From NCBI RefSeq assembly GCF_036226765.1, contig NZ_CP109017.1, positions 6,263,001-6,327,000 on the forward strand: DNA of 64,000 bases, read 5' to 3'. Of the stretch, positions 5,819-63,096 are shown one piece after another. The notes under the pieces are model-generated. The model was not told where the DNA came from. It saw only the letters and a program-made list of their open reading frames with translations, and made no database searches. The translations under genes were made by a program, and so were the position numbers. The stretch's first letter is position 1. Each line of letters begins with the position of its first letter. Source of the stretch: Streptomyces sp. NBC_00670. GTDB taxonomy: Bacteria; Actinomycetota; Actinomycetes; Streptomycetales; Streptomycetaceae.

Positions 5819-6931
5819 TCAATGGGCCAGGAGCAGCACCAGGACGACAACAGCGACGGTCACCGCCACCGCCAGCAGGGCTTTGCGCCGTCCCTCCTCC
5901 GACACCCGCCGTCGCACCGTGAGTTGTCCGCCGGCGTCCCGGAAGACGTAGAGCTCGAGGTTGCCGGAAGCGGGCGGTGTCGCCCTGACGACCGTGAGCC
6001 GCCGGAGGACGATCTCGCGTTCCTTCTCTCCCGGCCGCGCACCCAGTTCGGGCTCCAGTGCGGAGCGATGGGCGGGGAGGAGGTCGTCGGGGAGCGGATC
6101 GTGGGCGTCGAGCCGGTCCTCGCGCCAGCCGGCCGAGCCCAGTTCCGACGCCACCTGGCGGGGCCTCGGGACGGGAGGCGGCACCTGGCGGGTTCGAGAG
6201 ATCCACTCTAGTCGTCCGGCGGTCCAGGACGTGAGGCTCCCGTGCCCCTCGCACGTGGTGCAGTCGACGGTGCCCGACGCCTTGCACGGCACGCAGGGGA
6301 TACGCCCCCTCGCCCCGCACTCCGTGCACTTCACCTTCCCCCAGCCCCGGCATCCGGGACACGCGCTGTCGGGTGTCCGGCAGGCCTCGCAGTCCACCCG
6401 TTCCTGGGGGTGGTCGGCCCTGCCCGGCTTCACCGGCCGTGGTGGGGTACTGGGCAGGCCACCGTGTTTGAGGAGCTGCGTGCACGCGGTGACACCGTGG
6501 CACACCGTGCACACCTGGGCGGGCTCGCACGGGCGGTATCTCATTCCCTTGCAGTCGGCGCACTGCCGTCGGCCGTTGCCGCAGTCGCAGGACGCCAGAT
6601 GCGCCGTGCCGCGCCTGACCAGATCGATCGGCCGGTCGACGGGCTTCTCGTGCGGGCCGAGCTTGTAGTCCCGCAGCACGTCGTAGAGCGGCCGCTCCGA
6701 GAGGTCGACGGTGCCGGGCCGGTGGTGTGTCCTCTCGGAGCGCTCCTCGATGCGGCGGGTGACGGAGGCCTCGAGCAGGTGCAGCCGGGAGAGCCGGAAA
6801 TCCGTCGGAGCCGGCCCCGGACGCCTGCGCCGGCCGCGTGCCGAGAACGCGTCGAGCGCCTCGTGCACCTCGTCGTCGGACGGGTCGTCGTTCGTCACCG
6901 CGACGCTCACTCCCCCCAGCCGCGCCTCCAC
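5819..6931 (-). CDS. Cysteine-rich DnaJ-zinc-finger-like, tail-anchored protein
   Basis: 370 residues from the outermost GTG (6931); GTG at 6898 is a serious alternative because GGGGGGAG lies about 10 bp before it. The middle holds a run of CxxC pairs (CDCGNGRRQCADC, CTVCHG, CEAC, CPGCRGWG, CTECGARG, CVPCKASG, CTTCEGHG); several match the CxxCxGxG pattern of the DnaJ zinc-binding domain, but there is no J domain. The last ~20 residues (LLAVAVTVAVVVLVLLL) are one hydrophobic helix ending three residues before the stop, so the protein is probably tail-anchored with the zinc domain in the cytoplasm. It precedes no obvious partner; the next gene on the same strand upstream is the CDP-alcohol phosphatidyltransferase (147-bp gap). 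Function unknown; a chaperone-like or scaffold role is only a guess. Confidence 0.8.
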   Translation of the reverse strand: MEARLGGVSVAVTNDDPSDDEVHEALDAFSARGRRRRPGPAPTDFRLSRLHLLEASVTRRIEERSERTHHRPGTVDLSERPLYDVLRDYKLGPHEKPVDRPIDLVRRGTAHLASCDCGNGRRQCADCKGMRYRPCEPAQVCTVCHGVTACTQLLKHGGLPSTPPRPVKPGRADHPQERVDCEACRTPDSACPGCRGWGKVKCTECGARGRIPCVPCKASGTVDCTTCEGHGSLTSWTAGRLEWISRTRQVPPPVPRPRQVASELGSAGWREDRLDAHDPLPDDLLPAHRSALEPELGARPGEKEREIVLRRLTVVRATPPASGNLELYVFRDAGGQLTVRRRVSEEGRRKALLAVAVTVAVVVLVLLLAH

Positions 6932-7078: not shown

Positions 7079-7909
7079 TCAGGCTCGGCCCGCCAGTTCC
7101 GGCAGTGGGGTCGTCGGCTGCGTCCTCTCCTCGGCCGTCAACGTCGGCGTCGGCGTCGGCATCCGCTCCTGCTCCGGCATCGGCTCCTGCTCCGGCTCGT
7201 CCCGTTCCGTCCACAGCCAGCCCACGTCCCGTCCGAACGACCACACCAGCCACCCCAGCGCCGACGACACCAGGACCGCCGACGCCTGGTACGGGAGCCA
7301 GCCCGAGGCCGCCGCCAGCAGGGCGATGCCCTGGTACGCCGCCACCGTCTTGCGGGCCATGCTGTGCGGGAGCGGGGCGTTGAGCCACGGCTGGAAGCGG
7401 GCCGCCGCCACGAACAGGTAGCGCATCGCGCCGATCAGCAGGACCCACGGGCCCAGCGACATCGACACGTACACGCTCAGGACGAGGATGAGGAACGCGT
7501 CCACCTCCATGTCGAAGCGGGCGCCGAGCACCGAGGACGTGCCCGTGCGGCGGGCGACCTTGCCGTCGACGCCGTCCAGGATCAGGGCGATCGCCGTCAG
7601 CCCCACGAAGAGCGTGACGGGCGGCGCCGTCTCGAAGGAGTCCGCCACCAGCGCCGTCACCCCGCCCACCAGCGTGGCCCGCCCCAGCGTGACCCGGTTG
7701 GCCGGTCCGAACGAGGTCAGCCGGGAGCGGAGCACGGCGCGGGTGAGGACGGCCCAGGTGGCGAGGGCGAAGGCCAGGCCGGTCAGCCAGCCCGCCGGAC
7801 TCATGCCCGTCGCCGTGCCCAGCAGGGCCAGCAGCAACACCTGCACGCCCGCCCCCACGGTCGTCTCCTGCTGCAACAGCCTCGCGTCGTATGTGTGGTT
7901 CAGGGCCAC
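7079..7909 (-). CDS. CDP-alcohol phosphatidyltransferase family membrane protein
   Basis: 276 residues from GTG 7909 (GGAGG seven bases upstream). The family signature D-x2-D-G-x2-A-R-x8-G-x3-D-x3-D is complete: D112, D115-G116, A119-R120, G129, D133, D137. Several hydrophobic segments surround it, giving a polytopic membrane enzyme; the last ~45 residues are hydrophilic and rich in P, E and T. The family joins a CDP-linked lipid or small molecule to an alcohol. The substrate cannot be read from the sequence. It is divergent from the MDR dehydrogenase gene that opens the FAPy-type locus, so it may supply a lipid or head-group for that product (inference). Confidence 0.88.
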   Translation of the reverse strand: MALNHTYDARLLQQETTVGAGVQVLLLALLGTATGMSPAGWLTGLAFALATWAVLTRAVLRSRLTSFGPANRVTLGRATLVGGVTALVADSFETAPPVTLFVGLTAIALILDGVDGKVARRTGTSSVLGARFDMEVDAFLILVLSVYVSMSLGPWVLLIGAMRYLFVAAARFQPWLNAPLPHSMARKTVAAYQGIALLAAASGWLPYQASAVLVSSALGWLVWSFGRDVGWLWTERDEPEQEPMPEQERMPTPTPTLTAEERTQPTTPLPELAGRA

Positions 7910-7934
7910 CGCTCATCCTCCGGCCGGTGTCGTC

Positions 7935-7988
7935 GAGATCAGCGAGATCAGCGAGATCTGTGAGATCAGCGAGATCAGCGAGATCGTC
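7935..7988. repeat. 9-bp tandem repeat (GAGATCAGC x6) in a divergent promoter region
   Basis: Six head-to-tail units: GAGATCAGC at 7935, 7944, 7962 and 7971, with variants GAGATCTGT (7953) and GAGATCGTC (7980). The array lies 26 bp upstream of the CDP-alcohol phosphatidyltransferase start and about 110 bp upstream of the MDR dehydrogenase start, inside their shared 192-bp regulatory region. Confidence 0.9.
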
Positions 7989-8101
7989 GAGTGACAGATT
8001 CGATCTTCGTTGCGTACGTTGTGCGCGACTTCGTGAGGTGCTTCGGGACTTCTTGTAGCTGCGGTACGTGGGGAATCCGTCGATCGTTCAGAGGGGTGCA
8101 T

Positions 8102-9094
8102 ATGAAAAGCACAGGAAGCACGGAGCGTTCAGCCCGGGCCTTCTGGCTGCGGGAGCCCGGGTGCGGCGAGATCCGCGACGTCGGGCTGCCCGAGCCGGGC
8201 GAGGGCGACGTGGTCGTACGGGCGCTGTACTCCGGGGTCAGCCGCGGCACCGAGACCCTCGTCTTCCGGGGCGGCGTGCCCGCGAACCAGTACGGCGCCA
8301 TGCGCGCGCCCTTCCAGGACGGCGACTTCCCCGCCCCGGTCAAGTACGGCTACCTCAGCGTCGGGGTCGTCGAGTGGGGGCCCGGGGAACTGCTGGGACG
8401 GAACGTGTTCTGCCTCTTCCCGCATCAGACGCGGTACGTCGTGCCCGCCTCCGCCGTCACCCTCGTGCCCGAGCGCGTGCCGGCCGGGCGGGCCGTCCTC
8501 GCGGGGACCGTCGAGACCGCCGTCAATGCCCTGTGGGACGCCGCGCCGCTGCTCGGCGACCGCATCGCCGTCGTGGGGGGCGGGATGGTCGGATGCGGTG
8601 TCGCCGCGCTGCTCGCCCGGTTCCCCGGGGTGCGGGTCCAGCTCGTCGACGCCGACGCGGGACGGGCCGGCGTCGCCCGCGTGCTCGGGGTCGACTTCGC
8701 CCTGCCGGAGGAGGCGCTGGGGGAGTGCGACCTCGTCGTGCACGCCAGCGCGAGCGAGGCCGGGGCCCGGCGCTCACTCGAACTGCTCGCCCACGAGGGC
8801 ACGTTGATCGAGATGAGCTGGTACGGGGACCGGGTCGTCGGGCTGCCGCTCGGCGAGGCCTTCCACTCCCGGCGGCTCACCGTGCGCAGCAGCCAGGTCG
8901 GCACGGTGTCGCCGCGTGCGCGGTCCGGGCGGACGTACGGCGACCGGCTCGCCCTCGCCCTCGACCTGCTCGCCGACCCCGCGTTCGACGTGCTCCTCAG
9001 CGGCGACACCCCGTTCGAGGAGCTGCCGGAGCTGCTGCCCCGGCTCGCCTCGGGGGAGTCGGGCGGACTGTGTCACCGGGTGACGTACGCCTGA
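8102..9094 (+). CDS. Zinc-type alcohol dehydrogenase-like (MDR) oxidoreductase
   Basis: 330 residues. ATG 8102 is preceded by GAGGGG (8091-8096 region). The Rossmann motif VVGGGMVGCGVAALLA sits at about residues 154-169, and the N-terminal GroES-like half has the MDR layout (SRGTETLVFRG). The canonical catalytic-zinc ligand pattern (C...GHE) of true alcohol dehydrogenases is not evident, so it may be a zinc-free MDR reductase or dehydrogenase. It is the first gene of a co-directional run with the PTPS-like, glycosyltransferase, methyltransferase and flippase genes, after a 189-bp gap. Substrate unknown; a redox step on the locus product is the natural inference. Confidence 0.85.
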   Translation: MKSTGSTERSARAFWLREPGCGEIRDVGLPEPGEGDVVVRALYSGVSRGTETLVFRGGVPANQYGAMRAPFQDGDFPAPVKYGYLSVGVVEWGPGELLGRNVFCLFPHQTRYVVPASAVTLVPERVPAGRAVLAGTVETAVNALWDAAPLLGDRIAVVGGGMVGCGVAALLARFPGVRVQLVDADAGRAGVARVLGVDFALPEEALGECDLVVHASASEAGARRSLELLAHEGTLIEMSWYGDRVVGLPLGEAFHSRRLTVRSSQVGTVSPRARSGRTYGDRLALALDLLADPAFDVLLSGDTPFEELPELLPRLASGESGGLCHRVTYA

Positions 9095-9283
9095 GGGCAC
9101 CTCGTGTCACGGCTGAGGTCGGCTTCCGTCCCGGGCGGTCCGTGAAGCGGACAAGCCGCTGCTGAACAACCCGTGCCGATCGGCCGTACTACACGGCATG
9201 CCTGGCCCGGCCGGAGTTCCCCGTCCCCCGTGACGGGGGCGCCGGCCGGGCGCTCAGACGCACCGCACCTGGAGGGTCGTCCG

Positions 9284-9682
9284 TTGTTCAGCATCACGGT
9301 CCGCGATCACCTGATGATCGCCCACAGCTTCCGCGGCGAGGTCTTCGGCCCCGCGCAGCGCCTGCACGGAGCGACGTTCCTCGTGGACGCCACCTTCCGC
9401 CGCCCCGAGCTGGACGACGACAACATCGTCGTCGACATAGGACTGGCCACGCAGGAACTCGGCGCCGTCGTCGCCGAGCTGAACTACCGCAACCTCGACA
9501 ACGAGCCCGACTTCGCCGACACCAACACCTCGACGGAGTTCCTCGCGAAGGTCGTCGCCGACCGGCTCGCGCAGCGCGTCCAGGACGGCCGGCTCGGCGA
9601 GGGGGCCCGCGGGCTCACCGGGCTCACCGTCACCCTGCACGAGTCGCACATCGCCTGGGCGAGTTACGAGCGTGACCTGTGA
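9284..9682 (+). CDS. 6-pyruvoyl-tetrahydropterin synthase / QueD-like protein, degenerate active site
   Basis: 132 residues. A TTG at 9284 was chosen: GGAGGG (9271-9276) lies seven bases upstream and the product then begins directly with the family's first strand (MFSITVRDH). The fold is recognisable: IAH (His14), RLHGATF (His28), VVD (Asp51), NLDN (Asp72-Asn73) and [12 protein letters not shown] near the end. Compared with E. coli QueD, the catalytic Cys is Ala24, the third zinc His of HGH is Ala30, and the catalytic His after LD is Asn73. The substrate-anchoring Glu is kept. The protein is therefore unlikely to run the normal PTPS or 6-carboxy-tetrahydropterin reaction, though it may still bind a pterin or pyrimidine. 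Its stop overlaps the GTG of the glycosyltransferase by four bases. Confidence 0.82.
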
Positions 9683-10932
9683 GTGACGTGATCACCCAGC
9701 AGACGGCCCGTCCCGCCGCGGGGCAGGCGGCTCCCCCCGCCGGTACGGCTCCGGCGGCTCGTCGCCGGCTGGACTACGTGCCCGTGCAGCAGACCGCCCC
9801 CGCTCCCGCCCCCACCCACGCCGAGATCATCCCCATGTCCCTGCGCACCCTGCACTTCGTGCTGCCGGCCGGCGTCGACGACCCCGCCAACCCCAGCGGC
9901 GGCAACGCCTACGACCGCCGGATCTGCCTCGACCTCCCCGGCTTCGGCTGGCAGGTCGTCAAGCACACCGTCGGCGGCGCCTGGCCCGCCCCCGGCGCCG
10001 ACTCCCGCGCCGCCCTCGCCCGCACCCTGCGCGAACTGCCCGACGGCACGGTCGTGCTGCTCGACGGCCTCGTCGCCTGCGGCGTCCCCGAGGTCGTCGT
10101 CCCGGAGGCCGGACGGCTCTGTCTCGCCGTCCTCGTCCACCTCCCGCTCGGCGACGAGACCGGGCTCGACGCCGACGTCGCCGCCGCGCTCGACGCCACG
10201 GAGCGCGAGACCCTGCGCGCCGTCTCCGCGGTGATCGCCACCAGCGACTGGGCCGTACGCCGGCTCGTCTCCCACCACGGGCTCGCCCCCGACCGCGTGC
10301 ACGTCGCCGCCCCCGGCGCCGACATCGCCCCCCTCGCCTCCGGCACCGACGGCCTCTCGCAGCTCCTGTGCGTCGCCTCCGTGACCCCGCGCAAGGGGCA
10401 GCACCGGCTGGTCGAGGCGCTGGCGACCGTCCCCGACCTGCCGTGGAGCTGTGTGTGCGTCGGCTCGCTCACGCAGGACCCCGAGTACGTCGCCGGGGTC
10501 CGGGAACTGATCACCGCGCACGGGCTCGGCGACCGGTTCCACCTCGTCGGACCGCGCTCCGGCGCCGCGCTCGACGCCAGCTACGCCGCCGCCGACCTGA
10601 TGGTCCTCGCCTCCTACGCCGAGACCTACGGCATGGCCGTCACCGAGGCGCTCGCCCGGGGCATCCCCGTCCTCGCCACCGACGTGGGCGGGCTGCCCGA
10701 AGCGGTGGGGCGCGCGCCGGACGGCGGGGTGCCCGGCATCCTCGTACCGCCGGAGGACCCCGCCGCGCTCGCCGCCGAGCTGCGCGGGTGGTTCGGCGAG
10801 GCGGACGTACGGCGCCGGCTGAAGGCCGCCGCGCGGGGGCGCCGGGCCGCGCTCGACGGCTGGGCCACCACCGCGCGCAGCCTCGCGGGGGTACTGGGCC
10901 GGCTGCGGCCCGAGTCCCGGGAGGCGGCGTGA
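9679..10932 (+). CDS. GT4-family glycosyltransferase
   Basis: 417 residues from a GTG overlapping the PTPS-like stop. The first ~52 residues are low-complexity (A/P/Q-rich), and an internal ATG at 9835 ([13 protein letters not shown]) would remove them. The core is a GT-B fold: an N-terminal domain, then [18 protein letters not shown], the [12 protein letters not shown] stretch, and the E-x7-E-type signature [27 protein letters not shown], typical of GT4 retaining transferases. It likely glycosylates the product of this locus using a nucleotide-activated sugar. Its stop overlaps the methyltransferase GTG by four bases. Confidence 0.9.
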
Positions 10933-11924
10933 GGACGGGGGCGGCGGGTGTCGGTGCGGGTGCCGACGTGGGTGTGGATGCGAGTGTGGATGCGAACGTG
11001 AGCGCGGGTGCGGGTGTGCACTCGGGTGCGGGTCCCGGCGGTTCGCTTTCCGCCCTGCCCGCGCCCGGCGCCGGGCCCGTCGACGACGAGTCGGGCGTGC
11101 CCCGGTACGCCCCCCAGTGGCTGCGGCTGCGCGAGCCCGCCGACGCCGCCGCGCGCGCCCACGATTTGCTGGACCCGTTGCGCATCCGGCTCGCCAACCG
11201 GCCGGGCCGGCGCGGGGCCGGGCTCGTCGTGCACGACCTCGGCTGCGGCACCGGCTCCATGGGCCGCTGGCTGGCGCCCCTGCTCGACGGGCCCCAGCAC
11301 TGGATCCTGCACGACCGCGACCCCTACCTGCTGCACTTCGCCGCCGTGGGGGCGCCCCGGTCCGCCGCCGACGGCAGCCGGATCGACGTCACCACGCAAC
11401 GCGGCGACCTCGGCCGGCTCACCGCCGACGCGCTCGCCGGTGCCTCTCTCGTCACCGCGTCCGCGCTGCTCGACGTGCTCACCCGCGAGGAGATCGACAC
11501 GCTCGCGGCGGCCTGCGTCGGGGCGGGCGTCCCCGCGCTGCTCACGCTGTCCGTCGTCGGACGGGTCGAGCTGACGCCCTCCCGTCCGCTCGACGCGGAG
11601 CTCGCCGCCGCGTTCGACGCCCACCAGCGCCGGGGTGAACTGCTCGGCCCGGACGCGGTCACCGCGGCCTGCGAGGCGTTCGGCCGGCTCGGTGCGACGG
11701 TGCGGGTGCATCCCAGTCCGTGGCGGCTCGGGGCCGAGCACGCGGAGCTGGCGGGGGAGTGGCTGCGTGGCTGGGTCGGCGCGGCCGTCGAGCAGCGGCC
11801 GGAGCTGGCGGCGCGTGCGGATACGTATCTGCGGGAGCGGCTCGCCCAGTGCGGGGGCGGGGAGCTGGGGGTTGTGGTCGGGCACAGTGATGTGCTCGTG
11901 CTGCCGGGGGCGGGTGGGGTGTAG
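10929..11924 (+). CDS. SAM-dependent methyltransferase
   Basis: 331 residues from GTG 10929, coupled to the glycosyltransferase stop (GTGA). Residues 1-45 are a repetitive G/A/V/D/S-rich leader encoded by imperfect tandem DNA repeats. The class I SAM-binding motif VVHDLGCGTGSMGRWLAPL follows at about residues 96-114, and LHDRDPYLLHF supplies the acidic post-I loop. The C-terminal half is an unassigned helical domain. It probably methylates the locus metabolite; O-, N- or C-specificity cannot be told. Its stop TAG shares one base with the next gene's GTG. Confidence 0.87.
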   Translation: MRTGAAGVGAGADVGVDASVDANVSAGAGVHSGAGPGGSLSALPAPGAGPVDDESGVPRYAPQWLRLREPADAAARAHDLLDPLRIRLANRPGRRGAGLVVHDLGCGTGSMGRWLAPLLDGPQHWILHDRDPYLLHFAAVGAPRSAADGSRIDVTTQRGDLGRLTADALAGASLVTASALLDVLTREEIDTLAAACVGAGVPALLTLSVVGRVELTPSRPLDAELAAAFDAHQRRGELLGPDAVTAACEAFGRLGATVRVHPSPWRLGAEHAELAGEWLRGWVGAAVEQRPELAARADTYLRERLAQCGGGELGVVVGHSDVLVLPGAGGV

Positions 11925-13180
11925 TGACTACCGCGGTTTCAGAGGTGACGGTGGAGGTCTCGGAGGTCTCAGCGGTCTCGGAGGTCTCGGCGGTCTCGGA
12001 GGTGACGGCGGAGGCGGCCGGGGCCGGGGTGGTCCGTGCGGGGCGGCCTCGGGTGCCGGCGGGCGTGCGGCGGCACTTCGGGAGTGTGGCCGGGGTGGTC
12101 ATCCTCGCGGTGTTGCTGTGGCGGCTCGGTACCGGGGTGTTCCTGGACGGGCTGCGGCGCATCGATACGCCGACGCTGCTCGCGGGGCTCGGCATCGGGC
12201 TGCTCACCACCGTGCTCAGCGCCTGGCGCTGGTGCCTGGTGGCGCGGCGCCTCGGCATCCGGCTGCGGCTGCGGGACGCCGTCGCCGACTACTACCGGGC
12301 GCTGTTCCTCAACGCCGCCCTGCCCGGTGGCGTCCTCGGCGACGTGCACCGTGCCGTGCGGCACGGGCGCGACTCCGGGGACCTCGGGCGCGGGGTGCGG
12401 GCCGTGGTGATGGAACGGACGGCGGGGCAGCTGGCGTTGGTCGCGGCGGGGGTGCCGGTGCTGCTCCTGGTCGAGTCGCCCGTGGTGCACCAGGTGCGGC
12501 ACGGTGTGGCCGTGCTCGGGGTGGTGGTCGTGGGCGTGGTGGCCGTGGTGGCTGCGGTGCGGATGGGGCGTTCGGGAGCGGGTGTACGGCCGGTGCCGGG
12601 TGCGCGTCGGGGGCGGGCCGTGCGTGCGGCATTCGTCGAGGCGCGGGGTGTGTTGCTCGACCGGCGGGTCGGGGGTGGGGTGCTCCTCTCTTCCCTCGCC
12701 GTGCTCGGCGGGTATCTGCTGATGTTCCTCGTTGCGGCGCGCGCCGCCGGGGCCGACGTGAGTCCGCTGCGGCTGCTGCCGCTCGCCATGCTCGCGCTGA
12801 TCGCGATGGGGCTGCCGCTGAACGTCGGCGGCTGGGGTCCCCGGGAGGGCGTCACCGCCTGGGCGTTCGGGGCGGCGGGGCTGGGTGCGGGGACGGGGCT
12901 GAGTGTCGCCGTCGTGTACGGGGTGCTGAGCTTCGTGGCGAGTCTGCCGGGGGCTGTCGTGCTGGTGGTGCGGTGGGTCGGTGGTTCGCGGGTGCTGTCC
13001 CATGTTCCGTTTCCCCGGTCGCCTCCGGCGGGGTCGGAGGCGGGGGCGGGTTCCCGTTACGCCGAGGGGTTCAGCAGGGTGAAGTACGCGGCGAAGGAGT
13101 CGGTCAGTGCGGTGAGTATGCGTTCCCCCTTCTCCGCCGAGGCGAGTGAAGGACGGCCGATGACACCGGACTCCGTGTAG
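11924..13180 (+). CDS. Flippase-like (lysylphosphatidylglycerol synthase TM-region / UPF0104) membrane protein
   Basis: 418 residues from GTG 11924 (TAGTG overlap). Residues 1-30 are a SEV/SAV tripeptide repeat; about seven to eight hydrophobic helices follow, with the family features LSAWRWCLVARRLG, ALFLNAALPGGVLGDVHRA and GLPLNVGGWGPREG. Members resemble the membrane half of MprF and archaeal AglD and are thought to move lipids or lipid-linked sugars across the membrane. After the last helix (about residue 351) there is a ~65-residue tail, the final 41 codons of which are antisense to the convergent creatininase gene. Together with the glycosyltransferase and CDP-alcohol transferase, this suggests a membrane-linked or exported product (inference). 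Confidence 0.87.
   Translation: MTTAVSEVTVEVSEVSAVSEVSAVSEVTAEAAGAGVVRAGRPRVPAGVRRHFGSVAGVVILAVLLWRLGTGVFLDGLRRIDTPTLLAGLGIGLLTTVLSAWRWCLVARRLGIRLRLRDAVADYYRALFLNAALPGGVLGDVHRAVRHGRDSGDLGRGVRAVVMERTAGQLALVAAGVPVLLLVESPVVHQVRHGVAVLGVVVVGVVAVVAAVRMGRSGAGVRPVPGARRGRAVRAAFVEARGVLLDRRVGGGVLLSSLAVLGGYLLMFLVAARAAGADVSPLRLLPLAMLALIAMGLPLNVGGWGPREGVTAWAFGAAGLGAGTGLSVAVVYGVLSFVASLPGAVVLVVRWVGGSRVLSHVPFPRSPPAGSEAGAGSRYAEGFSRVKYAAKESVSAVSMRSPFSAEASEGRPMTPDSV
11962..12015. repeat. 18-bp tandem repeat inside the 5' end of the flippase-like gene
   Basis: GGAGGTCTCAGCGGTCTC (11962-11979), the same unit with one change (11980-11997) and a diverged third unit (11998-12015). The underlying period is 9 bp and encodes alternating SEV and SAV tripeptides. 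Confidence 0.8.
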
Positions 13181-13812
13181 GCCGCCATGCCGGTCGTCAG
13201 CAGGTGCCGCCGGTCGTCGGCGACGAAATCGGTGGCCTCGTATCCGCCGCGGACCACCTCGGGATGACAGTGGAGGAGGAGGGAGGTCTCTATTTCCCCC
13301 GCGTGCATGTCGGTCAGCAACGAGGTCTCGACTCCGGCCCGTTCGCGTGCGGATTCCCAGTCCTCCGGGGCCGGGAAAAGCGCCATGGTGGGTCCTTCGG
13401 CCGCGGTGGATTCCTGCACCACATTGCCGAGTACGTAATTGCCGCCGTGGCCGTTGACCAGGACGAGGGCCTCAACGCCGGAGCGGCGCAGCGATTGTGC
13501 GATGTCCCGTACCACCGCGTGGAGAGTGACGGAGGAGATGCTGACCGTGCCCGGCCAGTCCGCGTGCTCGTGCGAACAGGCGATGGTCACCGGGGGCAGG
13601 AGATGCACCGGATATCGCGCGGCGACCGCGCGGGCTATCGCGCAGGCGACGAGGGTGTCCGTCGCCAACGGCAGGCAGGGGCCGTGTTGTTCGAAGCTGC
13701 CGATGGGGAGGACGGCGACCTGGGGGTGCCGGCCGACGGCCCGGCGTCGTACGTCCTCGGTGGTGTCGGTCGGGAGGACGCCGGTGGTGTTGTTCGGTGC
13801 TTCTTTCTTCAT
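13057..13812 (-). CDS. Creatininase-family amidohydrolase
   Basis: 251 residues. ATG 13812 was chosen because GGAAG lies about eight bases upstream; the frame stays open further but without a comparable signal. Metal ligands of the family are present: E41 and H43 in IGSFEQHG, D52 in LATDT, H122 in NGHGGN and E173 in MHAGEIETS. The family includes creatininase, MftE of mycofactocin synthesis and archaeal ArfB, which deformylates FAPy, the product of GTP cyclohydrolase III. The gene lies 46 bp from, and divergent to, a GTP cyclohydrolase II paralogue predicted to make FAPy, so FAPy deformylation is an attractive inference. Its 3' end overlaps the flippase gene by 124 bp on the other strand. Confidence 0.88.
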   Translation of the reverse strand: MKKEAPNNTTGVLPTDTTEDVRRRAVGRHPQVAVLPIGSFEQHGPCLPLATDTLVACAIARAVAARYPVHLLPPVTIACSHEHADWPGTVSISSVTLHAVVRDIAQSLRRSGVEALVLVNGHGGNYVLGNVVQESTAAEGPTMALFPAPEDWESARERAGVETSLLTDMHAGEIETSLLLHCHPEVVRGGYEATDFVADDRRHLLTTGMAAYTESGVIGRPSLASAEKGERILTALTDSFAAYFTLLNPSA

Positions 13813-13858
13813 TTTGTGGCTTCCCTTCCTCAATGTGTTCTTCAGATAGGAACTGATC

Positions 13859-14488
13859 ATGACAGAAATTGTCGCCGGGGTCACTCGGGTGGTTACCGCG
13901 CCGTTGCCCACGAAATACGGTGATTTCGAGGCGGTCGGCTACCAGGACAACGTCCGTGGTGACGAGCAAGTGGCGTTGGTGTACGGGGACGTGCAGGCGG
14001 AGGGAATGCTTGTCCGGCTGCATTCCGAATGCCTGACGGGAGACGCGTTCGGGTCCACGCACTGCGAGTGCGGGCCCCAGCTCATCACCGCGCTGCGGGA
14101 GATCGTGGCCGAGGGGCGGGGCGTGCTGGTGTACTTGCGGGGGCACGAGGGGCGGGGCATCGGGCTGCTGGGGAAGCTGCGGGCGATGAAGCTCCAGGCG
14201 GAGGGGCTCGACACGGTCGAGGCGAATCTCGCGCTGGGGTTGCCGGTGGACGCGCGGGACTACCGCGTGGCCGCGGAGATGCTGCGGGATCTGGGGGTGC
14301 GGTCGGTGCGGTTGCTGTCCAACAACCCGCGGAAGCGGGAGTCGTTGGAGCGGCACGGGGTGAAGGTCGAGACGCAGGTACCGTTGCTGATACCGCCGTG
14401 CGAGAACAACATCACGTATCTGCGGACCAAGCGGGAGCGGTTGGACCACTATCTGCCGCATCTGGACGCGGTGGTGCAGTCCTCTTGA
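13859..14488 (+). CDS. ribA: GTP cyclohydrolase II paralogue, FAPy-type (Met switch residue)
   Basis: 209 residues from ATG 13859. Zinc ligands C58, C69 and C71 lie in HSECLTGDAFGSTHCECG, and the active-site loop HEGRGIGLLGKLRAM is intact, as are D131 and R133. Canonical enzymes have Tyr where this protein has Met110 (KLRAM instead of IRAY in E. coli, Tyr105). In S. coelicolor the paralogue SCO6655 has Met at this position and converts GTP to the formylated pyrimidine FAPy instead of the riboflavin precursor APy; restoring Tyr restored APy formation (Spoonamore et al. 2006, from memory). This gene stands alone without ribB, ribD, ribE or ribH, so it is a specialised copy rather than the riboflavin enzyme. 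It is divergent from the creatininase gene over 46 bp. Confidence 0.93.
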   Translation: MTEIVAGVTRVVTAPLPTKYGDFEAVGYQDNVRGDEQVALVYGDVQAEGMLVRLHSECLTGDAFGSTHCECGPQLITALREIVAEGRGVLVYLRGHEGRGIGLLGKLRAMKLQAEGLDTVEANLALGLPVDARDYRVAAEMLRDLGVRSVRLLSNNPRKRESLERHGVKVETQVPLLIPPCENNITYLRTKRERLDHYLPHLDAVVQSS

Positions 14489-14540: not shown

Positions 14541-15725
14541 TCAGGCGATGATCGCTTCGGCGACCAGTCTGCGCAGGTCCTGGAAGAACGGGTTGCCGGC
14601 TTTGGGGCGGACCTGGGTGAGGAACTGCACGGTGAGGTCGTGGGCGGGGTCCACCCAGAACGTTGTGCTTGCCACTCCGCTCCAGCCGTAGGTGCCGGTG
14701 GGGCCCACGGAGACGCCCAGGCCGAAGCCCGTGTTCTTGTTGGTCTGCGTGCGGTGGGGTGGGGTGCCGTAGTTGTGCAGATCGGTGTGGTGGGGGAGGT
14801 GGTTCGACGTCATGAGGGTGACGGAGTGGGGGGTGAGGAGGCGGGTGCCGTTCAGTTCGCCCTTGCGGCGGAGGAACTCCATGAAGCGGTGGTAATCGCG
14901 GGCCGTTGCCACCATGCCGCCGCTGCCGGAGAGGAGCTTGGGGCGGGTGTGGAGGGGGAGGCCGGGGACGGGCTCGATGCCGCCGGTCTCTGTCTCGCCG
15001 TACAGCTCGGCCAGGCGGGGAGCCTGTTCGGGGGTGACGTGGAAGCCGGCGTCGCGCATGTCCAGGGGGGTGAAGATGCGGTCGCGGAAGAAGTCGTCCA
15101 GTGGGGAGGCGGAGACCGTTTCGATGACGCGGCCCAGGATGTTCGTCGCCACCGAGTAGTTCCAGGCCGTGCCGGGGTCGAACTGGAGGGGGAGGCGGGC
15201 GTAGGCCTCGCAGGTCTCGGCGAGGGTGGTGCCGGGGACGACGGAGGACTCCAGACGGGCCTCGCGGTAGAGCGCGTCGACCGGGTGGTCGTGGTAGAAG
15301 CCGAAGGTCAGGCCCGCCGTGTGGGTCATCAGGTGGCGGATGAGGAGTGGGTTCGAGGCCGGGCGGGTGTGGGTGGCGTCCACGTAGACCCGGGGGTTCG
15401 CGAAGGACGGGAGGATCTCGGCAAGGGGTGTGTCGAGGGTGATTCCTCCTTCCTCGATGAGCATCAGTGCGGCGACGGATGTCACCGGTTTGGTCATGGA
15501 GTACATGCGCCAGAGGGTGTCGGTGGTGACGGGGGCGTGCGTCCGCCGGTCGCGTTCTCCGTGGGTGGTGAGGTGGGCCACGTGGCCGTGGCGGGAGAGG
15601 GAGAGCAGGTAGCCGGGGAGTCTGGCGTCCCGCACCGCGCGGGTGAAGTGGGCGTTCAGGCGGGCCAGGGCGTGAGGGTCCAGGCCGGCCTCGGTGGGGT
15701 CCACTTCTTGTCGCAGGTCCTTCAT
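14541..15725 (-). CDS. Serine hydrolase of the beta-lactamase / class C family (esterase family VIII-like)
   Basis: 394 residues from ATG 15725 with GGGAGA about five bases upstream. The nucleophile motif SMTK gives Ser76 and Lys79, and Tyr190 in NYSVATN is the catalytic base of the class C and DD-peptidase fold. There is no signal peptide, so it is cytoplasmic, as for EstB-type esterases and beta-lactamase-like hydrolases, rather than a secreted beta-lactamase. The gene converges with ribA and is divergent from the PPOX gene. Substrate unknown; an ester or small lactone is likelier than a beta-lactam. Confidence 0.9.
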   Translation of the reverse strand: MKDLRQEVDPTEAGLDPHALARLNAHFTRAVRDARLPGYLLSLSRHGHVAHLTTHGERDRRTHAPVTTDTLWRMYSMTKPVTSVAALMLIEEGGITLDTPLAEILPSFANPRVYVDATHTRPASNPLLIRHLMTHTAGLTFGFYHDHPVDALYREARLESSVVPGTTLAETCEAYARLPLQFDPGTAWNYSVATNILGRVIETVSASPLDDFFRDRIFTPLDMRDAGFHVTPEQAPRLAELYGETETGGIEPVPGLPLHTRPKLLSGSGGMVATARDYHRFMEFLRRKGELNGTRLLTPHSVTLMTSNHLPHHTDLHNYGTPPHRTQTNKNTGFGLGVSVGPTGTYGWSGVASTTFWVDPAHDLTVQFLTQVRPKAGNPFFQDLRRLVAEAIIA

Positions 15726-61506: not shown

Positions 61507-63096
61507 GTGGGACAGCCCACCCCTGCCCGAAAAGGGACCGACTGGTGGCGCTCCGCCGTCATCTACCAGGTGTACGTCCGCAGCTTCGCCGACGGCGACG
61601 GGGACGGCACCGGCGACCTCGCGGGCGTCCGCGCCCGGCTCTCCCACCTCGCCGAACTCGGCGTCGACGCCCTGTGGTTCAGCCCCTGGTACCTCTCCCC
61701 GATGAAGGACGGCGGCTACGACGTCGCCGACTACCGCACCATCGACCCCGCCTTCGGCACCCTCGCCGAGGCCGAGAAACTGATCGCCGAGGCCCGCGAA
61801 CTGGGCATCCGCACGATCGTCGACATCGTCCCCAACCATGTCTCCGACCAGCACCCCTGGTTCCGCAAGGCCCTGGAGGGCGGCCCCGAGCGCGAGCTGT
61901 TCCACTTCCGCACCGGCCGCGGCGACCACGGCGAACTCCCGCCCAACGACTGGCAGTCGGAGTTCGGCGGCCCCGCCTGGAGCCGGCTCGACGACGGCGA
62001 CTGGTACCTGCACCTGTTCGCCCCCGAGCAGCCCGACCTCAACTGGGCCCACCCGGCCGTCCGCCAGGAGCACGAGGACGTGCTGCGGTTCTGGTTCGAG
62101 CGAGGCGTCGCCGGGGTGCGGATCGACTCCGCCGCCCTCCTGGTCAAGGACCCCGCGCTGCCCGACTTCACCGCCGGGCGCGACCCGCACCCGTACGTCG
62201 ACCGCGACGAGCTCCACGACGTCTACCGCTCCTGGCGCCGCGTCGCCGACGAGTACGACGGCGTCTTCGTCGGCGAGGTCTGGCTCCCCGACGCCGAGCG
62301 CTTCGCCCGCTATCTGCGCCCCGACGAACTGCACACCGCCTTCAACTTCTCCTTCCTCTCCTGCCCCTGGGACCCCGCCCGGCTGCGCGCCTCCATCGAC
62401 GACACCCTCGCCGAGCACGCCCCCGTCGGCGCCCCCGCCACCTGGGTGCTCTGCAACCACGACGTGACCCGTACGGTCACCCGCTACGGCCGCGCCGACA
62501 CCGGCTTCGAGTTCGCCACCAAGGCCTTCGGCACCCCCACCGACCTCGCGCTGGGCACCCGCCGCGCCCGCGCCGCCGCCCTGCTGACCCTCGCCCTGCC
62601 CGGCTCGGTCTACGTCTACCAGGGCGAGGAACTGGGCCTGCCCGAGGCCGACATCCCCCGCGAGCGCATCCAGGACCCGATGCACGCCCGCTCCGGCGGC
62701 ACCGACCCCGGCCGCGACGGCTGCCGGGTCCCGCTGCCCTGGACGGCCGGCGCGCCGTACGCCGGTTTCGGCTCCCGCGAGGAGCCGTGGCTGCCGCAGC
62801 CCGCCGACTGGGCCGCGTACGCCGCCGACCGGCAGGCCGCCGACCCGCACTCGATGCTCACCCTCTACCGCGAGGCGATCCGCCTCCGCCCCGTCTTCGG
62901 CGACGGGCCGCTCACCTGGCTGCCCGCCCCGGAGGGAGTCCTCGCCTTCACCCGCGCCGACGGCGTCCGCTGCGTGGTGAACCTCGGCGAGGACCCCGTC
63001 GCACTCCCCACCCCCGCCCAACCCCTGCTCTCCAGCGGCCCGTTGACCGACGACGGGCGGCTGCCGCAGGACACCGCGGTCTGGCTCCGCGACTGA
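61507..63096 (+). CDS. GH13 alpha-glucosidase
   Basis: 529 residues from GTG 61507 (GAAAGG upstream). GH13 motifs: DIVPNHVS (region I), GVRIDSA with nucleophile D207 (II), GEVW with acid E257 (III) and CNHDV with D319 (IV). There is no signal peptide, so it hydrolyses imported oligosaccharides to glucose in the cytoplasm. It lies 60 bp after the permease genes, in the same operon. Confidence 0.95.
   Translation: MGQPTPARKGTDWWRSAVIYQVYVRSFADGDGDGTGDLAGVRARLSHLAELGVDALWFSPWYLSPMKDGGYDVADYRTIDPAFGTLAEAEKLIAEARELGIRTIVDIVPNHVSDQHPWFRKALEGGPERELFHFRTGRGDHGELPPNDWQSEFGGPAWSRLDDGDWYLHLFAPEQPDLNWAHPAVRQEHEDVLRFWFERGVAGVRIDSAALLVKDPALPDFTAGRDPHPYVDRDELHDVYRSWRRVADEYDGVFVGEVWLPDAERFARYLRPDELHTAFNFSFLSCPWDPARLRASIDDTLAEHAPVGAPATWVLCNHDVTRTVTRYGRADTGFEFATKAFGTPTDLALGTRRARAAALLTLALPGSVYVYQGEELGLPEADIPRERIQDPMHARSGGTDPGRDGCRVPLPWTAGAPYAGFGSREEPWLPQPADWAAYAADRQAADPHSMLTLYREAIRLRPVFGDGPLTWLPAPEGVLAFTRADGVRCVVNLGEDPVALPTPAQPLLSSGPLTDDGRLPQDTAVWLRD

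Follow-up and report, generated by a model that had tools for sequence, protein, structure and literature searches.

A candidate locus for diverting GTP into a specialised pyrimidine or pterin in Streptomyces sp. NBC_00670, with relatives in other bacteria and haloarchaea

The window considered here, 64,000 nucleotides in length, covers 6.263–6.327 Mb of the 7.58 Mb single-contig genome of Streptomyces sp. NBC_00670 and holds, between positions 7079 and 14488, a block of eight genes that is examined as a candidate biosynthetic locus (Table 1). The block encodes a CDP-alcohol phosphatidyltransferase, a dehydrogenase (DH) of the medium-chain dehydrogenase/reductase (MDR) type, a T-fold protein of the 6-pyruvoyltetrahydropterin synthase (PTPS) family, a GT4-family glycosyltransferase (GT4), a class I S-adenosylmethionine (SAM) methyltransferase (MT), a flippase-like membrane protein, a creatininase-family hydrolase, and a paralogue of GTP cyclohydrolase II (GCH II). 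An initial annotation had named these eight families, and all of them are present, as recognised by Pfam or, for the DH and the MT, through the folds of structural models, which were built from 26–27 sequence rows. Gene frames in the window were selected by codon-position GC. With the starts chosen here, PTPS and GT4 overlap by 4 nt, GT4 and MT by 4 nt, and MT and the flippase-like gene by 1 nt; provided that these starts are right, such overlaps are like those of coupled operons. The CDP-alcohol transferase gene is divergent from the DH gene, and the creatininase gene is divergent from that of GCH II and convergent with the flippase-like gene, with a tail-to-tail overlap of 124 nt that was also called in two related loci (L042 and L044).

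Table 1. Genes of the block and its neighbours, in window positions (FAPy, 2-amino-5-formylamino-6-ribosylamino-4(3H)-pyrimidinone 5'-phosphate; ORF, open reading frame)
Gene	Positions	Strand	Evidence and remarks
CDP-alcohol phosphatidyltransferase	7079..7909	-	Pfam PF01066 CDP-OH_P_transf 54.6 bits (cut-off 22); catalytic motif D..DG..AR.{8}G...D...D intact
MDR-type dehydrogenase (DH), BchC-like	8102..9094	+	ORF opens at 7991; ATG at 8102 agrees with the starts of relatives; all Pfam matches below cut-off; MDR fold in model
PTPS/T-fold protein, SCO6650 orthologue	9284..9682	+	ORF opens at 9173; TTG at 9284 aligns with Met of relatives; Pfam 78.7 bits
GT4-family glycosyltransferase	9679..10932	+	Pfam PF00534 101 bits
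Class I SAM methyltransferase (MT)	10929..11924	+	Start uncertain; conserved domain from 11097; weak Methyltransf_25 match below cut-off
Flippase-like membrane protein (LPG_synthase_TM)	11924..13180	+	Pfam PF03706 121.8 bits; TIGR00374 flippase-like match below cut-off
Creatininase-family hydrolase, proposed FAPy formamidase	13057..13812	-	Pfam PF02633 220 bits; metal-site motifs intact
GCH II paralogue, predicted FAPy type	13859..14488	+	Pfam PF00925 223.5 bits; Met110 at E. coli Tyr105
Gene 5' of the block	5819-6931	-	Cys-rich repeats resembling a DnaJ zinc finger
Beta-lactamase-family gene after the block	14541-15725	-	Matched in 21 of the 151 related loci, including 13 of 19 same-genus class-sample loci
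PNPOx gene, next after the beta-lactamase-family gene	15776-16234		Matches 4 of 151 related loci

The PTPS was found in 57 of the 394 sampled genomes of the class and in 25 of 137 genera (the genome studied here, 19 others of the same genus, and 37 from elsewhere). Two sets of loci from other genomes were compared. The class sample comprises 56 of 58 places, two of them from one genome, the window itself and a place at a contig end (G074) being left out. The named sample comprises the best 80 of at least 576 confirmed relatives, ranked in a manner that favours likeness to a Thiodictyon query and taken from contigs without annotation; its members come from Actinomycetota, Pseudomonadota, Acidobacteriota, and one metagenome-assembled genome (MAG) of the Nannocystaceae (Myxococcota). 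Some of the fetched stretches stop at contig ends, which limits the counts of absent genes. Within these samples, DH (56 of 56 and 80 of 80), PTPS (56 and 80), GT4 (56 and 77), MT (47 and 75), the flippase-like protein (49 and 48), the CDP-alcohol transferase (49 and 68), a RibD_C reductase (20 and 53), creatininase (31 and 38), and GCH II (44 and 39) recur to different extents. DH and PTPS occur together in all 136 of these chromosomal or contig loci and side by side in 130, adjoining on one strand in 53 of the 56 and adjoining in 77 of the 80. Because the gene set recurs in related loci, the eight genes form a recurring unit, beyond chance. The initial annotation had made its reading depend beforehand on co-occurrence elsewhere, which the DH and PTPS display across several phyla; the range that it named, Streptomyces, is too narrow. 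Within that genus the locus is accessory, because at least 20 genomes lack the PTPS, and its taxonomic range is much wider. Plasmid copies are found in Methylosinus, Rhizobium, Agrobacterium, a Rhodobacteraceae, Thiodictyon, Microbacterium, Streptomyces fungicidicus, and haloarchaea.

The GCH II of the window scores 227.8 bits with TIGR00505 (cut-off 205.85), and the three zinc cysteines (CCC) are present in all 87 rows from loci with a detected GCH II, window included, which are also the loci covered by the comparison of the switch residue. At this switch position the window protein carries Met and not the Tyr by which APy-forming RibA enzymes are recognised; the genome has four GCH II domains, of which the other three keep Tyr. 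Met is reportedly also the residue of the FAPy-forming enzyme SCO6655 from S. coelicolor. Among the 71 actinomycete loci with GCH II (window included), 54 combine a creatininase with a residue other than Tyr (M, H, L, Q, or C), 16 have Tyr and no creatininase, none has both Tyr and a creatininase, and one has Leu with no creatininase within its 20 kb. In this last case (L059), a 61%-identical creatininase lies 14 kb from the PTPS on the same contig. Of the remaining 23 class-sample genomes whose locus lacks a creatininase, 7 hold only 33–44%-identical creatininases elsewhere and 16 hold none. Among the 46 non-actinomycete named loci, creatininase and GCH II are both present in 13, GCH II alone in 1, creatininase alone in 3, and neither in 29. 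Fisher tests give p 5e-15 for the actinomycetes and p 7e-8 for the others; they ignore relatedness, so they are not taken as proof.

The creatininase of the window carries all three metal-site motifs of the family, and so do 65 of 72 rows. A bacterial creatininase-family protein, BrbF, is described in PMC9478397 as a FAPy formamidase that converts FAPy to APy, and the same source attributes the formation of FAPy in archaea to GTP cyclohydrolase III (GCH III). The comparison took in ten plasmid stretches from haloarchaea (L107-L111, L113, L114, L195-L197). In four of them (L107, L109, L195, and L196) a GCH III, annotated as GTP cyclohydrolase IIa, immediately precedes the DH, with confirmation by Pfam PF05165 in L107 (293 bits) and L109 (273 bits). 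A creatininase is present in L108 and L197 (Pfam checked in L108), and four of the ten hold neither. Taken together, the switch residue, its covariation with the creatininase in Actinomycetota, and the haloarchaeal GCH III make a front end passing through FAPy quite probable for the window locus.

The PTPS has one solved relative at E <= 0.001 in a phmmer search, PDB 3d7j, entitled 'Uncharacterized protein SCO6650' (E 4.3e-74, 135 residues), and judged by this match the window protein is the SCO6650 orthologue. A residue survey of 144 bacterial loci, from which 13 unreadable rows were dropped, indicates that the third zinc-binding His is lost in all 131 readable proteins (Ala in 130, Val in 1; HHA in the window), with the ring-anchoring Glu kept in all 131, and the position of the catalytic Asp-His dyad reads Asn-Tyr. 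In haloarchaea, HHH is found in five of six proteins, the sixth, from Haloarcula marismortui, not being alignable there. Against the QueD model, the window protein reaches 33.7 bits (cut-off 89.25). Most of the annotated plasmid copies examined bear the name 6-carboxytetrahydropterin synthase, which appears doubtful because the zinc and catalytic residues are lost. The PTPS of the H. marismortui plasmid pNG700 (L108, 10039-10412) matches in two pieces in both species records and is not annotated in the one examined, and this copy is perhaps frameshifted; that of H. sinaiiensis is in one piece and annotated. Among the PTPS matches listed is a second S. anthocyanicus record.

The folds of the DH and the MT are generic (MDR dehydrogenase and class I methyltransferase, respectively) and point to no substrate. 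The DH model has its best fold matches (Z 30.7, rmsd 2.3, 296 aligned residues) tied among an E. coli enzyme of unknown specificity and the xylitol, sorbitol, and idonate dehydrogenases, and its nearest sequence model, BchC, is matched at 42.9 bits (cut-off 291.25). A classical catalytic zinc is unlikely in this DH, because no invariant column across 15 bacterial and haloarchaeal sequences is a Cys. The MT model (pLDDT 95.3) matches 3mgg with Z 19.3.

The RibD_C reductase adjoins a Tyr-type GCH II in many actinomycetes and lies between the flippase-like and creatininase genes in some Streptomyces (e.g., L053 and L172). The one such reductase scanned singly, from L067, has the archaeal APy reductase as its top NCBIfam model, with 119 of 186 bits. 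An unlinked pair of RibD_C and Tyr-type GCH II is present in the genome studied here at 3.50 Mb (3501941-3503868), its reductase being 48% identical to the cluster-borne one of L067 and its GCH II 68% identical to that of L064.

On the membrane side, the CDP-alcohol transferase is encoded in 117 of the 136 bacterial loci and, among the ten stretches from haloarchaea, in six. An alkaline-phosphatase/sulfatase-like protein occurs in 42 of the 136 loci, fused to the CDP-alcohol domain in L066, and is weakly recognised, below the cut-off, in H. marismortui. A YceI gene is present in 17 loci, lying at most 150 nt from the match to the CDP-alcohol gene in 16 and just after the match in the other, and cytochrome b561 is encoded in 4. 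These findings favour a product that would be membrane-associated or exported.

From these elements, it appears probable, if only by a modest degree, that the block is an accessory biosynthetic locus diverting GTP into a specialised 2-amino-4-oxopyrimidine or pterin. GCH II lacking the switch Tyr would open GTP to FAPy, a step reportedly shown only for the orthologue SCO6655, and the creatininase-family hydrolase would strip formate from FAPy to give APy, as suggested by the covariation and by the precedent of BrbF; in relatives, these reactions may be replaced by a Tyr-type GCH II alone or by a start with the archaeal GCH III. The subsequent steps are predicted from families and neighbours. 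In many relatives, the RibD_C reductase would reduce the ribosylamine; the zinc-less T-fold protein may bind the 2-amino-4-oxopyrimidine ring and the MDR DH act on the polyol side chain, reshaping the compound, possibly to a pterin; methylation and glycosylation by the GT4 would follow; and the CDP-alcohol transferase and flippase-like protein would attach the product to a lipid and/or move it across the membrane.

The FAPy-type label given in the initial annotation is supported by the Met at the switch position, the covariation with creatininase in Actinomycetota, and the GCH III before the DH in four haloarchaeal stretches. A glycosylated, methylated pyrimidine or pterin, possibly lipid-linked, which the same annotation had put forward, is plausible and continues to be the best reading, fitting the findings down to the YceI beside the CDP-alcohol transferase; as a product class, it is still a prediction. 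The initial annotation had also called the riboflavin, queuosine, and folate pathways incomplete; other enzymes of these pathways are not recurrent in 12 non-actinomycete loci scanned in depth. It is a tentative possibility that a single ancient or widely transferred pathway, spread over Actinomycetota, Pseudomonadota, Acidobacteriota, a Myxococcota MAG, and haloarchaea, leads to an unrecognised class of membrane-associated, glycosylated, methylated (pterin-like) pyrimidines, and that within it the GTP-opening step has been solved in at least three ways across lineages (Tyr-type GCH II, FAPy-type GCH II plus creatininase, and GCH III). If so, in Proteobacteria YceI and, in some cases, cytochrome b561 would carry the pathway into the periplasm, in keeping with a lipid related to redox processes or light. 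The comparison yields a testable role for the neighbouring creatininase, that of a FAPy formamidase, links the T-fold protein with a single MDR DH in nearly all the loci examined, and points to a pathway that would be common in unrelated microbes, tractable strains included.

Several observations weigh against this interpretation. The window locus has no RibD_C, and three Streptomyces linear plasmids (L105, L198, and L199) carry a 69–77% identical PTPS with no partner gene annotated beside it. GCH II is not in the fetched stretch in 12 of the 56 class-sample loci and 41 of the 80 named loci, some of these stretches stopping at contig ends, and the haloarchaeal L107 has GCH III and DH with no match to PTPS or MT. 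The creatininase falls below every NCBIfam equivalog cut-off (MftE 146/172, creatininase 102.4/235, and ArfB 40.6/180 bits). The 16 non-actinomycete GCH II rows comprise 12 with creatininase and Tyr, one with creatininase and Ile (Halomonas halmophila, L171), and three with Tyr and no creatininase. The creatininase is not strictly tied to the loss of Tyr, because 12 of the 13 proteobacterial and acidobacterial loci with both proteins keep it. A strict covariation of creatininase with a non-Tyr residue was rejected, because this wider set breaks it outside Actinomycetota. In trees, the actinomycete creatininases form a clade apart from the proteobacterial/acidobacterial ones, both on long branches. 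The non-Tyr GCH IIs of actinomycetes all fall in one clade (support 99/77), so the covariation comes down to roughly a single event in evolution, with an independent change from Tyr to Ile (L171) besides. An alternative is that GCH II and creatininase are no more than passengers of a locus of the lipid or exopolysaccharide type, with no joint step and with a covariation due to shared ancestry. The single clade, the many loci with neither protein, and the 12 with Tyr plus creatininase speak for this explanation, to which we give a low probability: co-occurrence is seen in both of the distinct creatininase clades, a creatininase-bearing Halomonas shows a further change of the switch residue, and GCH III precedes the DH in haloarchaea. 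A joint step of creatininase and GCH II is still likely outside Actinomycetota, because the two proteins co-occur there, although Tyr alone does not predict the creatininase.

The nature of the product invites other explanations. The T-fold protein could close a pterin ring from APy, like the second half of GTP cyclohydrolase I, with RibD_C as a dihydropterin reductase and a glycosylated, methylated pterin as the product. Pterin glycosides occur in cyanobacteria and Chlorobium, and sulfohalopterin in H. marismortui, which, like H. sinaiiensis, carries the locus with a creatininase; the membership of the T-fold superfamily, the invariant Glu, and the GT4 in 77 of the best 80 named loci are in keeping with such a product. 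This route is nevertheless rather unlikely, as the bacterial form has lost the zinc ligand and the Asp-His dyad, and the matches of the RibD_C reductases are to reductases of the riboflavin type and to the archaeal APy reductase. In the open-licence literature searched, 'halopterin' appears only within 'pseudohalopterin', in a paper of unrelated chemistry. A duplicate riboflavin module that supplies flavins for secretion, a role proposed for RibBA in Sinorhizobium, would account for GCH II, the FAPy-formamidase-like hydrolase, and RibD_C as riboflavin-type enzymes, and PMC9478397 argues for parallel flavin modules. Against it, the DH, PTPS, MT, and GT4 are not known to have a flavin role. The genome, moreover, holds three other GCH II domains, and no lumazine synthase, riboflavin synthase, or deaminase was detected among the window-locus proteins scanned. 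The scan of the 12 loci covered 120 of 128 called proteins, the caller having missed some real genes, and none of these three enzymes is among the 25 commonest of its 66 Pfam families; each family below those has one member at most. The riboflavin reading, distinctly improbable, was rejected on these grounds. A 7-deazapurine pathway of the queuosine or toyocamycin kind, with the PTPS as QueD, has on its side the plasmid annotations that name the T-fold gene 6-carboxytetrahydropterin synthase. It was rejected as extremely unlikely in view of the QueD score, the lost zinc and catalytic residues, and the lack of a recurrent radical-SAM or QueC-type family in the 12 scanned loci.

As for known systems, the window locus is very probably the S. 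coelicolor SCO6649–SCO6655 locus in another Streptomyces, given that its PTPS is the SCO6650 orthologue and its GCH II shares the Met reported for SCO6655; the unit described here differs in extending beyond Streptomyces, with alternative front ends. The SCO6655/SCO6650 cluster was reportedly the subject of papers by Spoonamore and co-workers in 2006 and 2008. SCO6655 is reported to turn GTP into FAPy as Met replaces the Tyr of the APy-forming enzymes, and SCO6650 to be without zinc and without PTPS activity. Both proteins were reportedly characterised long ago as enzyme puzzles without a product. In the open-licence literature searched, the gene combinations and SCO6650 are unmentioned, SCO6655 is named in one metabolic-model paper, and two reviews name FAPy together with Streptomyces. 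QueD and 6-pyruvoyltetrahydropterin synthase share the T-fold and the ring-binding Glu with the window protein, which differs from them in the third zinc His (Ala/Val) and the Asp-His pair (Asn-Tyr). The toxoflavin and toyocamycin clusters are also natural-product pathways begun by GTP cyclohydrolases, but their enzymes ToxD and the QueE-like ToyC were not seen at the locus. The archaeal riboflavin front end (GCH III/ArfA, ArfB, and ArfC) is proposed to share the same intermediates, its GCH III occurs in some haloarchaeal copies, and its APy reductase model is the best-scoring one for a RibD_C relative; in contrast, the window creatininase matches ArfB poorly and no later riboflavin steps were seen. 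The BrbF branch of alphaproteobacterial riboflavin synthesis resembles the present case in the proposed deformylation of FAPy to APy by a creatininase-family enzyme, but BrbF works in riboflavin synthesis, and which GTP cyclohydrolase acts with it was not known in PMC9478397, whereas the window creatininase adjoins a GCH II.

Regarding the surroundings of the block, the gene on its 5' side is without a Pfam match and matched none of the 151 related loci at E 1e-20. The named loci among the 21 that match the beta-lactamase-family gene are all from Streptomyces, and in S. fungicidicus (L112) this gene and the PNPOx gene follow GCH II in the same order as in the window. Both are taken as Streptomyces neighbours outside the predicted pathway, because they are unmatched beyond that Streptomyces group.

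The Streptomyces plasmids provide a second context for the T-fold protein. Its stand-alone genes lie at 8022-8447 in L105, 6079-6477 in L198, and 6010-6408 in L199; the last two share a neighbourhood of a YbaB-like protein, a metallo-beta-lactamase (MBL) hydrolase, a discoidin-domain protein, and a cupin, and the neighbours in L105 include cupins and an MBL hydrolase. Some members of one actinomycete family have a major facilitator superfamily (MFS) transporter together with a Methyltransf_19 protein in or near the cluster (L042, L050, L055, L058, L065, and L074); one protein of each kind was checked with Pfam, and in three of the six loci the two genes lie between those of GT4 and MT. A MoaA-type radical SAM/Mob_synth_C protein is encoded just past the YceI gene in a Thauera MAG (L143, 4333-5412), radical SAM not being recurrent in the families listed for the 12 scanned loci. 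Finally, a tRNA-Ala gene with anticodon CGC lies at window positions 62740-62809 on the - strand.

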